DNA of 64,000 bases from a virus. The stretch is taken from positions 1 to 64,000 of the IMG/VR virus record IMGVR_UViG_3300036770_005504; one strand, written 5' to 3'. How positions within the stretch are numbered: position 1 is the stretch's first letter; every line of letters starts with the position of its first letter. This document shows positions 1,704-43,983 of the stretch, piece by piece. The notes under the pieces were generated by a model, which did no database searches, was not told the origin of the DNA, and saw nothing but the letters and a program-made list of their open reading frames with translations. A program made the position numbers and the translations under genes.

Positions 1704-1777
1704 TGGTAGGGGTACCAGGAATCGAACCTAGACAAGCGGAATCAAAATCCGATGTGCTGCCATTGCACCATACCCCA
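1704..1777 (-). tRNA. tRNA-Gln (anticodon UUG)
   Basis: A 74-nt cloverleaf with D stem GTGC/GCAC and anticodon loop TTTTGAT as in bacterial tRNA-Gln. The T loop is TTCGATT and CCA is encoded. The terminal pair of the acceptor stem is a T-T mismatch; the known glutaminyl tRNAs have a weak U1-A72 pair here. It reads CAA. Confidence 0.93.
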
Positions 1778-1786
1778 TCTAATCTT

Positions 1787-1871
1787 TGGTGCGGATAGTC
1801 GGACTCGAACCGACAAGGCTTATGCCGAGGGATTTTAAATCCCTTATGTTTACCAATTTCATCATATCCGC
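1787..1871 (-). tRNA. tRNA-Leu (anticodon UAA)
   Basis: An 85-nt class II tRNA. The acceptor stem GCGGATA/TATCCGC is perfect, the anticodon stem AGGGA/TCCCT encloses loop TTTAAAA, a long variable arm is present, the T loop is TTCGAGT, and CCA is encoded. It reads TTA. Unlike the cyanobacterial tRNA-Leu(UAA), it has no intron. Confidence 0.95.
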
Positions 1872-1883
1872 ATTTAGAAATTT

Positions 1884-2168
1884 TGGTGGCCCCACCTGGA
1901 CTCGAACCAGGAACCTAACGATTCAGATTTGTGTGACTTTCGCCACTCTCTGGACTATGCCTTCTCCATGTCATTTCTGATTTAGGAGGGTGCCGTCTAG
2001 TCTCTACACGTTCCAAAGTGATTTCTCACTGAGGCTTCGCTCGGCATTGCCTTATCATTTCTGACTTAGGTTTCACCGAATTTGACACCATTCACACAGC
2101 GTATTTCTACATCTGGTGCACGAATATTTACATGAGTCGTTTGCACTGACCAATTGTGCTATAGGGCC
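1884..2168 (-). tRNA. tRNA-Ile2 (anticodon CAU), split by a group I intron
   Basis: The 5' exon is 2132-2168 and the 3' exon is 1884-1923. Joined, they give a 77-nt tRNA: acceptor GGCCCTA pairs with TGGGGCC, D stem GCAC/GTGC, anticodon stem AACGA/TCGTT, loop CTCATAA, T stem CCTGG/CCAGG, encoded CCA. The joined sequence closely resembles E. coli tRNA-Ile2 as I recall it, including CGACTCATAATCG. This tRNA reads AUA only after C34 is changed to lysidine by TilS, and a TilS gene lies 136 bases upstream. The CAU anticodon could also mean Met, but the acceptor and anticodon-stem sequence favour Ile2. Confidence 0.9.
1924..2131 (-). ncRNA. Group I self-splicing intron (Azoarcus-like, IC3 type)
   Basis: A 208-nt insertion directly after the CAU anticodon. 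It carries hallmark core elements: GTGTAGAGACTAGACGGC (R region, P7 and G site), AAGGCATAGTCC (S region), AATGCCGAGCGAAGCC (Q region) and TGGTGTCAAATTCGGTGAAA (P3/P4 side). The 5' splice site is the U of CAU, paired as U-G with an internal guide GTG at about 2119-2121. The last base is G (1924). As recalled, the core is nearly the same as the Azoarcus pre-tRNA-Ile(CAU) intron, which sits at the same position. No intron ORF is present. Confidence 0.93.
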
Positions 2169-2303
2169 ATATTTTTAAAGAACTTTTTCAATACAGTGCT
2201 TTATGCACTATCGTTACAACCTTGTCAAGAATTTTCTTGATGAAGATTATTTACTACAGTTTCAACATTCTATACTTATTTGCAGTTTCTGTCAACAACT
2301 TTT

Positions 2304-2948
2304 TTACCTTTTTGATGATTGATTTTTTACTCTGTCTGAATTGCTTAATTGTCGTTCTACCACACGACGCACCACACGATCAATTCCTGGATTGATATGC
2401 CTGATGTGTGGCATGACTTGATGTCGAATATAATTGCGTTGATATTGTAGATCACTGTTGCTTTGATCTTCACACCAAGGAACATCGTGATGCTGACACC
2501 AACTTTGTAATTGTTGCTTTTTGGTCAGCAAAAATGGTCGAATGACATGATTTCTTTGTAATGGTATGGTTTTACTCAATCCATGCATACTACTCCATAC
2601 ATATGTTTCTACACAATCATCGAGATGGTGAGCAGTTACAATGGGCATGTCCAGACTATCAAAAAAATTATAACGCTCAATTCTCCAGTGCTCTTCTGGA
2701 CTACGCGAACTATCACGCTGGTTGTGCATATATCCGATTATCAATGGTATTTGATGTTGATTACAATAATCGGCCACAAAATTTGATGCCCTTTCACTGT
2801 CATTGGTTCCATGGTGAAAAAATACTGCAGTGACATCATGGTTACGCTTGAGAAAATCCAGTGCTGCCATACTGTCTACCCCTCCACTGACACCAATACC
2901 TAACTGTCGGGGCAATCGTTGTGCTAGTTTGATCACGTTTTTATCCAA
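2304..2948 (-). CDS. tilS: tRNA(Ile)-lysidine synthetase, short form
   Basis: This 214-residue N-type PP-loop ATPase has SGGVDS near residue 20, TAHHLDDCVET near 105 and the TilS-specific EDQSNSDLQYQRNYIRH block near 165. TilS adenylates C34 of tRNA-Ile2(CAU) and attaches lysine, so that the tRNA reads AUA. The E. coli enzyme has more than 400 residues. This one keeps the catalytic domain and lacks the C-terminal tRNA-binding domains. The start is a TTG; no in-frame ATG is available nearby. It lies next to its presumed substrate tRNA. Confidence 0.88.
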   Translation of the reverse strand: MDKNVIKLAQRLPRQLGIGVSGGVDSMAALDFLKRNHDVTAVFFHHGTNDSERASNFVADYCNQHQIPLIIGYMHNQRDSSRSPEEHWRIERYNFFDSLDMPIVTAHHLDDCVETYVWSSMHGLSKTIPLQRNHVIRPFLLTKKQQLQSWCQHHDVPWCEDQSNSDLQYQRNYIRHQVMPHIRHINPGIDRVVRRVVERQLSNSDRVKNQSSKR

Positions 2949-3277: not shown

Positions 3278-3318
3278 TTCATGGTCGAGGGTATCAAATA
3301 AATATTCTCGACCATGAA
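3278..3318 (+). promoter_or_regulatory. Late promoter inside an inverted repeat over a start codon
   Basis: Perfect 12-bp arms (3278-3289 and 3307-3318) flank AATAAATA at 3297-3304. The 3' arm contains the ATG of the gene at 3314. Late transcripts should start near 3310 and so lack the 5' arm. Longer read-through transcripts would fold and hide the start codon. This matches the known T4 layout at genes such as e, soc and I-TevI. The repeat is seen directly; its regulatory role is inferred. Confidence 0.6.
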
Positions 3319-4234
3319 CAATACAATTGTCTGGAATGATGGATTAAACAATTATCGACACCATCAAATTTCTTTCCAAAATACACAGATACTTTATCAC
3401 TGTCATCTCGACGATGACCCAACCTCAACAAACAACCTAGATACTGCAATATCTCAAATACTAGAAACTTTTTGTAGTCAACCGATTGAACTATTGTATA
3501 GTGGTGGGCTAGACAGTGAATTATTATTGGTAAAGTTAAAAAAACTAAATTATCCAGTTCAAGCAATTACAATGAAATTGTATTGTCGTGGCTATCCTGT
3601 CAATACACATGATTTGTATTATAGTGAAAAATTTTGTCGACAGCATGATATTACACAAAAATTCATCGAACTAGACATTGAACAATTTTTCGAAAGCGGT
3701 CGTTATCTTGACTATCTGACCAAGTATTATATACAAGAACCACATGTGGCCACTCATTTTTGGATGTTTGAACAATGTGACAAATTTCCTGTGTTGGCTG
3801 GTGAATACACATGGCCCTGGGTGTCTGTACCAATTTTAAGTCCACATAGATTAGAATACAGTTGTTATGACCGTTATCTAGCTGACCATGGTATAACAGG
3901 AATTGGTAATTTTCTAAACTACAGTTATGATATTAATACTGCAATGATTTCTACTCACTGTGCTGTTTTTAAACAACACAATTTTATGTTAGATAATCGC
4001 AATTTACCTGTATTCAAAAAAAAATTCTACGATCAAATAAGTGATCATGATTTTGAAATACGTATGCGTAATTCAGGGTGGGAAAACCTGCCTAGATCTG
4101 TATTCAATAAAAATCGATATCGATTAGAATTAATACAACAATATCGACAAGTTGTTAAATCATCAATATCATGGTCAAAAAATCTAGCTGACATGTTAGG
4201 CGGAGAAATTTACTGTAATGATCGATACAACTAA
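3314..4234 (+). CDS. Asparagine-synthetase-like PP-loop ATPase
   Basis: 306 residues. LLYSGGLDSELLLVKL near residue 60 is the N-type ATP-pyrophosphatase loop, and the region VLAGEYTWPW near 157 sits where AsnB-type enzymes have a second active-site loop. There is no N-terminal glutaminase domain. Such domains adenylate a carboxylate before amide-bond formation. The substrate is unknown. The zinc site of QueC and the C-terminal motifs of TilS are absent, so it is neither. It is the first gene of a three-gene plus-strand unit and overlaps the next gene by 17 bases. Confidence 0.6.
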   Translation: MNNTIVWNDGLNNYRHHQISFQNTQILYHCHLDDDPTSTNNLDTAISQILETFCSQPIELLYSGGLDSELLLVKLKKLNYPVQAITMKLYCRGYPVNTHDLYYSEKFCRQHDITQKFIELDIEQFFESGRYLDYLTKYYIQEPHVATHFWMFEQCDKFPVLAGEYTWPWVSVPILSPHRLEYSCYDRYLADHGITGIGNFLNYSYDINTAMISTHCAVFKQHNFMLDNRNLPVFKKKFYDQISDHDFEIRMRNSGWENLPRSVFNKNRYRLELIQQYRQVVKSSISWSKNLADMLGGEIYCNDRYN

Positions 4235-6079: not shown

Positions 6080-6600
6080 GGCAGAATCTCGTCGAATACA
6101 ACAAAAACCCAATCTTGATCACTGTGATTTTCATAGGCATGAGGTAAACATAATGCAAAGTCTACTAGACTATTCTGATAGTCATTGGGATTGGCCACAA
6201 TTTGATTGTCTAATATCAATGTCACGGGAGATGGAATCTCTAAATAAATCTGATATCGACGAACGATGTTCATCTTTTTGGCATGAATTAAGTCGTTGTG
6301 TAGTCTAATTTTGCATTTGGGCAAAATTTTATGTATATAAGCTCGACCCAACAAACCACCATTTAATACATTATCAATGATATTCATAGTATTGGGGAAC
6401 AATTCTGGTCTAGTTGGTATCAATGGATTGGACCAATTCAGATGTATAGTCAATCCTTCATAAAGAGCTGTTAAATTTTTTTGATATGGCAGAACATGTT
6501 TAATCCACACACTGGAATCTATTTGTGCTAATTCTGTGCAGATATTATGTTGTTCTTCCTGTGTCAATGATCTAATTATTTCAGTTTGATTAGCTGGCAT
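6076..6600 (-). CDS. Aspartyl/asparaginyl-hydroxylase-like oxygenase
   Basis: 174 residues. LPKCKIRLHND near 95 gives a His with a following Asp, RRYQIYLEIP matches the R-H/Y strand typical of the Asp/Asn beta-hydroxylase family, and LPHAYENHSDQDWVFVVFD near 155 matches the distal His-Asn-Ser-Asp block. The family hydroxylates side chains with Fe(II) and 2-oxoglutarate. Here the substrate is unknown. Coupled to the methyltransferase by an ATGA overlap. Confidence 0.55.
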   Translation of the reverse strand: MPANQTEIIRSLTQEEQHNICTELAQIDSSVWIKHVLPYQKNLTALYEGLTIHLNWSNPLIPTRPELFPNTMNIIDNVLNGGLLGRAYIHKILPKCKIRLHNDLIHAKKMNIVRRYQIYLEIPSPVTLILDNQIVANPNDYQNSLVDFALCLPHAYENHSDQDWVFVVFDEILP

Positions 6601-7198
6601 GATGTTGAATTTCTTTAACTATGTCTTGCCAGTATAAATCGTCGGGCTGGCTAAATCGAATAGTTAACACATGTCGATAGTTTGAACTTTGTGTATTATC
6701 GAAATCGTGGTAGATGTCTGTATTAAACAGTATACATTGATCTTGTTCAAACACAGTTGATGTGGCTGGTTGATGATGTTGTTTTTGAAAATTTTCCAAT
6801 TCTCTACTGACACCATTGAGATCATTGAGTTTATACGATTCTTCCACATTGTTGTCATACCAACTGGTAATACAAAATTGGTCACGACAATCAATTATGT
6901 AATTTAATGCAGCTCTGATAGTTTGTCCGTCTTTGTGTGCTCGATAGTAGTGCCCGGGTGCAGTAGAAAATATACTGGCATAGGCTTTTAGCCCCTGTGT
7001 GACATACCGAAATGGAGAAAGTTTTAATAACAGTTCGCAATCGTGTTTGTTTATGCGTTGATGACGAAAATGCTGTGTACCACGGACAAACTCAAATTTT
7101 TCCTCGATCAAAATTTGACGAGCATATTCCACAATTGTTTTTTGTTCACTGTGTTCGATTATACAATAATAGGGAAATTTTGTTGACACTATTTTCAT
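6590..7198 (-). CDS. Aspartyl/asparaginyl-hydroxylase-like oxygenase
   Basis: About 202 residues starting at MKIVSTKFPY; the in-frame extension upstream crosses a promoter repeat and is rejected. YRAHKDGQTIRAALNYII near 91 supplies His-x-Asp and the strand that follows. LFNTDIYHDFDN near 168 supplies the distal His, with a conserved Arg in LTIRF. It is the promoter-proximal gene of the 7198-5300 unit. Its ATG coincides with the predicted +1 of a late promoter. Confidence 0.5.
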   Translation of the reverse strand: MKIVSTKFPYYCIIEHSEQKTIVEYARQILIEEKFEFVRGTQHFRHQRINKHDCELLLKLSPFRYVTQGLKAYASIFSTAPGHYYRAHKDGQTIRAALNYIIDCRDQFCITSWYDNNVEESYKLNDLNGVSRELENFQKQHHQPATSTVFEQDQCILFNTDIYHDFDNTQSSNYRHVLTIRFSQPDDLYWQDIVKEIQHHAS

Positions 7199-42510: not shown

Positions 42511-43983
42511 TTATTTCCGTGAATAAATCAAGTTACCACAATCCCATATTCTATAATATCTATTCAATGACATGTTTTGATATTCGCTGAGATCTGGGTC
42601 AAAAATTGACAATTTTTCAGCCAGTAAATGTTTTTGAAATTGATTTCTCGACAATAACAGACCAGGATTATTAAGGTGAAAATATTTATAATTGGGATCA
42701 GACTGTCCTATTAATTCAAATCCTGAATTTTGATATAAATTGCCGTTAATACTGTTGGTCCATCTACGGTCGGCATAGGATATCACACCGACGTTACCCA
42801 CCAATCGATCAAAGTAAGCCAGTATTTTGGATAAGCCACCGACCACAGTGTGATATTTTTCTGAGCAATATCTCAATAGTTCAAATTGAAATTGTTTGTT
42901 AAATCTAGACTTGCCAAAACCAGCAGCTGAAACCAACTGATCTTGATAAAACAACCCGATTTTTATACCACTGGCAATGAAACCTTGCAAATGGTTTCTT
43001 TCTACAAAACTTTGATACAATTTATTATCTATTTCTTTGACTTGACATTTTCTTGCCGGTATCTTGATACTGCGCCCTAACAAATGATTTAGTTTGCTTT
43101 TTACTATATCATGTTTTACTGGATCAAGCCATTCTGAATCGTAGATTTGTATCAAATGTATATGTGATTTTTCGCATTCAATTGTTTTGTCTAGATGATA
43201 TTTTTTTGATTTTCCCTTTTCCTCACAGTGCCAATATATGCCATTGATTTCAATGGCAAGATTTTTGTCTGGGACAAAAATGTCAATCTCTTTGTTGTTG
43301 AGAATTGTTCTATTGCTTTGTTCAATTGATGCATCAGTGATAGATTGTAAGTATTCTATGACTTCTTGTTCTATTGATGATGTTGAGTGTCTAATTGCTG
43401 ATATATCGTTTTCTGCAAAAAAGTTTAAAATAGGTGTGGCAGATATTCCTAATTCTTTGGCAATTTGTCCACAAGATTTTTTAAGTTCAAAATGTTGATA
43501 CCTCAGCCACTCAAGGTCTTTCATTAGATGTAAAGATTCTTGAGATATATGTATTTGCTTGTTGGTTGCGCGACCATATTTTTCTAAATTAGTCTTTCTA
43601 CGTTTCTCAAGTATAGAATCTTTTTTTACTTCAAATCTCTCGATTGCACTTTTTTGAATCTTCTCAACAACAGCAGGATCTTTACTGGGATTGTCTACAC
43701 CATAACGAGACATGAAAGTTGATTTCATTTTTGCTTTGACCAACGGACTTTTTGAAGGGTTGTCAACACCATATTTGGTTTGAAAAGTATCAACTAGCTG
43801 TTGCCTTATGGCATCATTGTGCATGGGATGACCACCGAACTTGTCAATATTGGTTTTTTGTTTTTTCTCTAATATGGCAGGATCACGTCCCATACACTTA
43901 TTGCTACACCAATCCCAATATTCATTCCGACTTTTGATAAATTTAGTTACCGGATTATTACAGATTTTACATCGCTTTTCCAT
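42511..43983 (-). CDS. Free-standing homing endonuclease with Vsr-like nuclease domain
   Basis: 490 residues. N-terminal zinc ribbon (CKICNNPV with CSNKC), then several repeats of the form KYGVDNPSK (NUMOD-like), a helix-turn-helix (SCGQIAKELGISATPI) and a PD-(D/E)xK/Vsr-like core (EIDIFVPDKNLAIEINGIYWH). A C-terminal GNAT-like extension (LVSAAGFGKSRFNKQ) completes it. It is an egoistic element between clamp and dpdA. An inverted repeat and late promoter precede it. Confidence 0.82.
   Translation of the reverse strand: MEKRCKICNNPVTKFIKSRNEYWDWCSNKCMGRDPAILEKKQKTNIDKFGGHPMHNDAIRQQLVDTFQTKYGVDNPSKSPLVKAKMKSTFMSRYGVDNPSKDPAVVEKIQKSAIERFEVKKDSILEKRRKTNLEKYGRATNKQIHISQESLHLMKDLEWLRYQHFELKKSCGQIAKELGISATPILNFFAENDISAIRHSTSSIEQEVIEYLQSITDASIEQSNRTILNNKEIDIFVPDKNLAIEINGIYWHCEEKGKSKKYHLDKTIECEKSHIHLIQIYDSEWLDPVKHDIVKSKLNHLLGRSIKIPARKCQVKEIDNKLYQSFVERNHLQGFIASGIKIGLFYQDQLVSAAGFGKSRFNKQFQFELLRYCSEKYHTVVGGLSKILAYFDRLVGNVGVISYADRRWTNSINGNLYQNSGFELIGQSDPNYKYFHLNNPGLLLSRNQFQKHLLAEKLSIFDPDLSEYQNMSLNRYYRIWDCGNLIYSRK

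Follow-up and report, generated by a model that had tools for sequence, protein, structure and literature searches.

The DNA analysed here (hereafter the window) comprises positions 1-64,000 of the IMG/VR viral record IMGVR_UViG_3300036770_005504, which is linear and 73,044 bases long in full. On the minus strand of the window, a gene for a tRNA(Ile)-lysidine synthase (tilS) is followed after 135 nt by a tRNA-Ile2(CAU) gene that is interrupted by a 208-nt insert, and then by further tRNA genes (Table 1); the order tilS-(Ile2)-Leu-Gln-small ORF-Arg is common to the window and contig L002. The 73-kb record encodes a T4-like DNA polymerase, a clamp loader, an endolysin and an exonuclease. As contigs of 230 and 264 kb with TilS and a gp23-type capsid gene encode a polymerase that shares 58% identity with the one found here, the record probably derives from a jumbo T4-related phage. 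A 490-aa protein with PHROGs matches labelled homing endonuclease is encoded elsewhere in the window (42514-43983, minus strand) and represents a possible source of DNA mobility.

Table 1. Features of the tilS/tRNA region, in window coordinates.
Feature	Position	Strand	Remarks
tRNA-Gln(UUG)	1704..1777	-	next in cluster
tRNA-Leu(UAA)	1787..1871	-	intronless; next in cluster
tRNA-Ile2(CAU) 3' exon	1884..1923	-	starts AAUCG at position 37; CCA encoded at end
Group I intron	1924..2131	-	208 nt, no ORF, between tRNA positions 36 and 37, terminal G; RF00028, covariation, tree
P7 3' strand UAGUC	1953..1957	-	guanosine-binding helix with 2002-1998; invariant
P3 3' strand GGCACC	1989..1994	-	partner of P3 5' strand
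P7 5' strand GACUA	1998..2002	-	guanosine-binding helix with 1953-1957
P3 5' strand GGUGUC	2084..2089	-	partner 1994-1989; both-side changes in 2/6 pairs
Guide (IGS) GUG	2119..2121	-	pairs with exon CAU, giving P1 with U-G at the splice site; invariant in 35 introns
tRNA-Ile2(CAU) 5' exon	2132..2168	-	ends ...CUCAU at position 36
Sigma-70-like promoter TTGACA-17-TAGAAT	2267..2295	-	tilS/tRNA intergenic; consensus match only, 11/12
tilS, tRNA(Ile)-lysidine synthase	2304..2936	-	single N-type PP-loop domain; 210 aa from GTG; 214 aa from TTG at 2948

When the minus-strand exons (2168-2132 and 1923-1884) are joined, they form a complete 77-nt tRNA, GGCCCUAUAGCACAAUUGGUCAGUGCAAACGACUCAUAAUCGUUAGGUUCCUGGUUCGAGUCCAGGUGGGGCCACCA, with the loop CUCAUAA, the pairs C4-G69 and C5-G68, an encoded CCA and every arm paired. 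The spliced tRNA agrees with E. coli ileX (annotated as tRNA-Ile(CAU)) at 61 of 77 positions, with elongator tRNA-Met at 53 of 77 and with initiator tRNA-Met at 42 of 78, and its best matches in E. coli are annotated tRNA-Ile (81.8%). By its full cloverleaf with a CAU anticodon, and by its closer resemblance to Ile2 than to Met tRNAs, the interrupted gene is a tRNA-Ile2(CAU), the identity given to it in a preliminary description of this DNA. ARAGORN, when run with its intron search, reported c[1884,2168] with anticodon cat and an insert of 208, in agreement to the base with the exons and insert of that description; without the intron search, it missed the tRNA-Ile2 gene of the window.

The same description had listed a set of group I core motifs in the insert and had named an Infernal comparison with Rfam as a check. 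That comparison placed the insert above the threshold of the covariance model RF00028 (54.0 bits against a gathering score of 50; E 6e-11), with a match extending over the full length of the model (positions 1-253). The insert was further aligned with related introns of tRNA-Ile2 genes, giving a set of 35 (7 from phages and 28 from bacteria), and a structure consisting of P1-P9, including the P3/P7 pseudoknot, was scored against shuffled and slid versions. Standard pairs fill 95.5% of the pair cells, and changes on both sides are present in 20 of 41 pairs; the slid versions reach 24-42%, and no shuffle attains the observed values. The core helices P3, P4, P6, P7 and P8, together with the P3/P7 pseudoknot, are present and backed by covariation, with P7, which never varies, itself giving no covariation either way. 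Invariant throughout the alignment are the sequence CTCAT before the intron, GAA spanning the 3' junction and the guide GUG, and in each of the 35 rows the terminal U of the 5' exon is paired to G in P1 and the intron ends in G. An A-U to U-A compensatory swap in P8 is found in the window alone. By model score and by compensatory pairing across its relatives, the insert is an ORF-less group I intron with the core motifs claimed for it, and is predicted to splice. We take it to belong to subgroup IC3, and it is about 77% identical to the Azoarcus intron.

Immediately before the guide GUG, all 28 bacterial introns have U, whereas the window has C and contigs L003, L103 and L127 have G, A and A, respectively. 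The C at this point removes the first P10 pair, the one formed with A37, and could thereby weaken exon ligation; P10 is not a strict requirement for every group I intron.

An intron-minus allele in an equivalent gene context is provided by contig L025, in which a CAU tRNA gene without an intron lies 25 nt downstream of tilS, and the proposed junctions restore this allele. The spliced tRNA of L103 is identical to the intronless tRNA at 76 of 77 positions, which supports the splice sites, while those of L003 and the window differ from it at 4 and 13 positions. Because the interrupted arrangement is seen independently in L003 and L103, a mis-joined contig is an unlikely source of the combination of tRNA and intron.

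The product of the neighbouring gene scores 130.4 bits against the NCBIfam model TIGR02432 (cutoff 93.6), an N-domain model that by itself defines the TilS equivalog domain; it also matches Pfam PF01171 and aligns with the solved TilS proteins 1wy5, 1ni5 and 3a2k. It keeps SGGVDS, AHHLDDCVET and RNYIRH, corresponding to the PP-loop motifs SGGxDS, HHxDDxxET and RNxxRxxxxP, and these motifs are conserved in 27 phage homologs of 196-215 aa; the alignment thus reveals an intact protein rather than the variant without catalytic residues that the preliminary description had allowed for. In cellular TilS, C-terminal domains serve tRNA recognition. Such a domain is absent from the window protein, which ends after the N domain, and from the 27 aligned phage homologs, and the full-length model PRK10660 gives a score of 84 against a cutoff of 606. 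By its domain matches and motifs, the window ORF is a genuine TilS composed of the catalytic domain only, which would be expected to form lysidine. It adjoins the tRNA as had been described, with its start amended to the GTG at 2936, which is likelier than the TTG at 2948 since homologs begin at the GTG position.

Two observations in the vicinity of this family may be added. Adjoining tilS on the opposite strand is a 306-aa ORF (3314-4231, plus strand) with a PP-loop-like SGGLDSE, for which no family match was found in Pfam, NCBIfam or PHROGs. Single-domain TilS proteins are encoded by hundreds of viral contigs (L295-L371, G011, G014, G042), mostly beside a DNA polymerase gene and without tRNA genes.

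Searches with an intron-core pattern returned at least 119 viral and at least 120 bacterial stretches (the viral status of contigs being that of their IMG/VR labels), and more than 80 viral contigs carry such an intron in a tRNA gene. Junctions were re-placed before tRNA type and site were assigned; ARAGORN had labelled tRNAs of many contigs 'Tyr(ata)', and tRNAs of L003 and L103 'Gln(ttg)', labels that were rejected because they stem from wrongly placed junctions in Leu(UAA) and Ile2(CAU). In about 80 of the 119 viral stretches listed, the intron lies in tRNA-Leu(UAA), after position 34; another 14 of the viral matches listed are in CAU tRNAs, ten of them after position 36 and four after position 33. 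A pattern near the Ile2 form, for which the listing is complete, matches just 13 viral stretches, some of them in other tRNAs, so the intron type of the window appears to be rare. Short contigs could be misclassified, and the strongest cases are therefore the window, L003 and L103. Blast matches in Alteromonas phage AD45, Enterococcus phage EF1 and KT997847 were discarded, as they yielded no tRNA, and a search of plasmids gave no full match.

The intron site of the window, after position 36, is that of 34 bacterial Ile2 genes, and what had been described as an Azoarcus-like intron at the anticodon edge is accordingly of the betaproteobacterial tRNA-Ile2 type. Phylogenetic analysis sorts the introns by site and places all site-36 Ile2 introns, phage and bacterial, in one clade with 100/100 support, in which the bacteria are mostly Betaproteobacteria and some Arg introns are included. 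The phage introns are dispersed within this clade; a single phage clade, and with it one origin for all phage Ile2 introns, is rejected (p-AU 7e-5), while one origin of the three TilS-linked introns (window, L003 and L103) is not (p 0.067). The rows nearest to the window intron are a proteobacterial MAG and Burkholderiaceae, including Polynucleobacter, a position that is poorly resolved within the clade. Since the phage introns do not form one clade, crossing between bacteria and phages happened more than once. On the evidence of the tree, the movement between bacterial and phage tRNA genes that the preliminary description had suggested is borne out as exchange.

Several related elements were observed in the course of these searches. 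Contig L003 has two tRNA introns, in Leu and Ile2, with its stretch 6244-6535 noted for a tRNA intron. In L071, L077, L080 and L136, a CAU tRNA is interrupted after position 33, not 36, and because these introns group with those of tRNA-Leu, a Leu-type intron seems to have switched gene. A related intron is present in a tRNA-Lys(CUU)-like gene, apparently inside the anticodon, in L292 (6025-6311) and L293 (822-1108), and in T7-like marine phages (L268, KT997847; Pelagibacter phage HTVC120P, H86) small intron cores of a related kind are located within capsid genes or next to them. Public phage sequences offer four further candidates that are not annotated as introns: Agrobacterium phage Atu_ph07 (L391) and a 735-kb uncultured phage (L267), both in Leu(UAA); Gordonia phage Daredevil (L393), in Lys(UUU); and Microcoleus phage My-WqHQDG (L394), in Arg(CCU), where the locus is annotated as a 286-nt tRNA-Arg. 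An Rfam scan of these four regions gave scores below the gathering score in every case. A broader reading of this distribution, which we advance tentatively and at slightly less than even odds, is that phages regularly host ORF-less group I introns of tRNA genes and act as vectors for them, ferrying them between bacteria by recombination at conserved tRNA genes, with the tRNA-Ile2 intron beside TilS being one of several independent arrivals; if true, such ferrying would explain the lateral movement of tRNA introns that lack endonucleases.

How closely tilS, the tRNA and the intron belong together was considered from the distribution of each. A tilS gene lies directly upstream of Ile2 (by 19-135 nt) in four contigs, namely the window, L003, L103 and L025; the linked TilS proteins fall into two supported TilS clades, and the linkage occurs both with and without the intron. 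Contigs L002 and L090 have apparent Ile2 remnants downstream of tilS. There (L002:5672-6500 and L090:8197-8990), Ile2 seems to have been cut to its 5' half; next come TAAATA, a sequence resembling a T4 late promoter, and an endonuclease-like ORF, and invasion of the tRNA site by a homing endonuclease is likely. L002 also has an 88-nt CAU tRNA with A73, CCA and a long variable arm (6518-6605); such a class II shape combined with CAU is unusual beside tilS.

Viewed more widely, TilS is mostly found apart from tRNAs. A profile search recovered 549 viral stretches with TilS; in the best 80 of these loci, a DNA polymerase relative is nearby in 72 and tRNAs in 4, and 20 of 26 TilS records, including the 230- and 264-kb contigs, are without any tRNA. 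This pattern, and the equal use of AUA by phages with and without tRNAs, would fit a phage TilS that acts chiefly on the host tRNA-Ile2 or tops up host TilS, its adjacency to the phage tRNA being incidental. We consider that explanation unlikely, as the position of tilS directly upstream of Ile2 is retained in two TilS clades and the cultured phage MIJ3 has a short TilS plus ileX-like CAU tRNAs; where they are linked, TilS and Ile2 probably work together.

An improbable alternative is that TilS, tRNA and intron constitute one selected AUA-decoding module, in which the intron might, for example, delay C34 modification until splicing or shield the anticodon loop from host nucleases. The window, L003 and L103 do combine all three, and the splitting of the anticodon loop by the intron suggests that modification would need prior splicing. 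These contigs are nonetheless the only intron-bearing phage Ile2 contigs with TilS, L025 has the tilS-Ile2 pair without an intron, and a search of 15 other tRNA-intron records (mostly of CAU tRNAs, several of them short fragments, and with no positive control) gave no TilS match. Enrichment of AUA also fails as support: AUA accounts for 19 per 1000 codons and 26.5% of Ile codons in the window, or 0.67 of the expectation from four-fold sites, and TilS phages without tRNAs use it about equally. The phrase 'self-contained AUA-decoding module' of the preliminary description is overstated on these counts; charging of the tRNA still requires an isoleucyl-tRNA synthetase, presumably that of the host, and the TilS of the phage is limited to its catalytic domain. 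As intron presence varies while the tilS-Ile2 order persists, the intron appears instead to be an independent passenger, most likely a near-neutral one.

A degenerate intron within a dead tRNA gene, to which the Rfam score only 4 bits above threshold and the lost P10 pairing might point, is highly improbable given the intact P3, P7, P8 and P9, a compensatory change to U-A in P8 that only the window has, the fully paired tRNA arms, the encoded CCA and a spliced tRNA still near ileX.

The preferred reading, to which we assign a probability of roughly 0.8, is that a small group I intron of betaproteobacterial tRNA-Ile2 type, without an ORF, invaded a phage tRNA-Ile2(CAU) gene beside a phage-type single-domain TilS, and that this intron is a near-neutral passenger. 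Transcription may proceed from tilS or from the promoter-like sequence at 2295-2267, a match that is weak evidence because such sites are about as numerous in the region as the shuffled mean. Once the pre-tRNA had folded, guanosine would attack after U36 at the U-G pair of P1, and the freed U36 would then attack after the last G of the intron, joining the exons to a normal tRNA. TilS would add lysine to C34 of the spliced phage tRNA, and perhaps also to that of the host; because the anticodon loop is divided by the intron, lysidine would probably have to be formed after splicing, and the lysine at C34 would in turn lead to isoleucine charging by the host synthetase and to the reading of AUA. 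Such introns would have entered phages several times, through recombination with the tRNA genes of bacteria or of other phages.

This locus would extend self-splicing introns to phage tRNA genes, of which a 2014 review knew none, all phage introns then known being in protein-coding genes (PMC3984707). A literature search, with most subscription journals outside it, yielded no subsequent publication describing a group I intron in a tRNA gene of a phage. One suggested cause of the oversight is that a common tRNA finder, tRNAscan-SE, is by its authors' own account not designed for the detection of group I introns (PMC8450103). The existence of intron-plus and intron-minus phage alleles of one gene makes it possible to test how tRNA introns spread and what they cost a phage, and a minimal single-domain TilS beside its likely substrate offers a system for studying discrimination between tRNA-Ile2 and tRNA-Met without a C-terminal domain. 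The scattered occurrence of these introns across viruses suggests viral help in spreading them.

The introns of T4-like phages (td, nrdB and sunY) are likewise group I introns of large tailed phages, found in protein genes and often with homing endonucleases; the window intron, in contrast, interrupts a tRNA gene and is ORF-less. The tRNA-Leu(UAA) introns of proteobacteria and phages are related small anticodon-loop introns, but are inserted after position 34, form a separate clade and are far commoner among the viral contigs listed. The short TilS of the cultured jumbo phages vB_PaeM_MIJ3 and PA5oct (PMC6892783) similarly consists of one catalytic domain, with a length of about 200 aa and 41% identity to that of the window, and these phages also have ileX-like CAU tRNAs; in them, however, some 8-10 kb separate tilS from the tRNAs, and a tRNA intron was not found. 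The window intron differs from the tRNA-Ile2(CAU) introns of Betaproteobacteria (the Azoarcus type) in residing in a phage and in having lost the first P10 pair, yet it shares with them the tRNA, the site after position 36, the 100/100 clade, a length of about 200 nt, the lack of an ORF and the guide GUG, and group I introns in Ile2 have been reported by the authors of tRNAscan-SE from Acidovorax and Burkholderia (PMC8450103).
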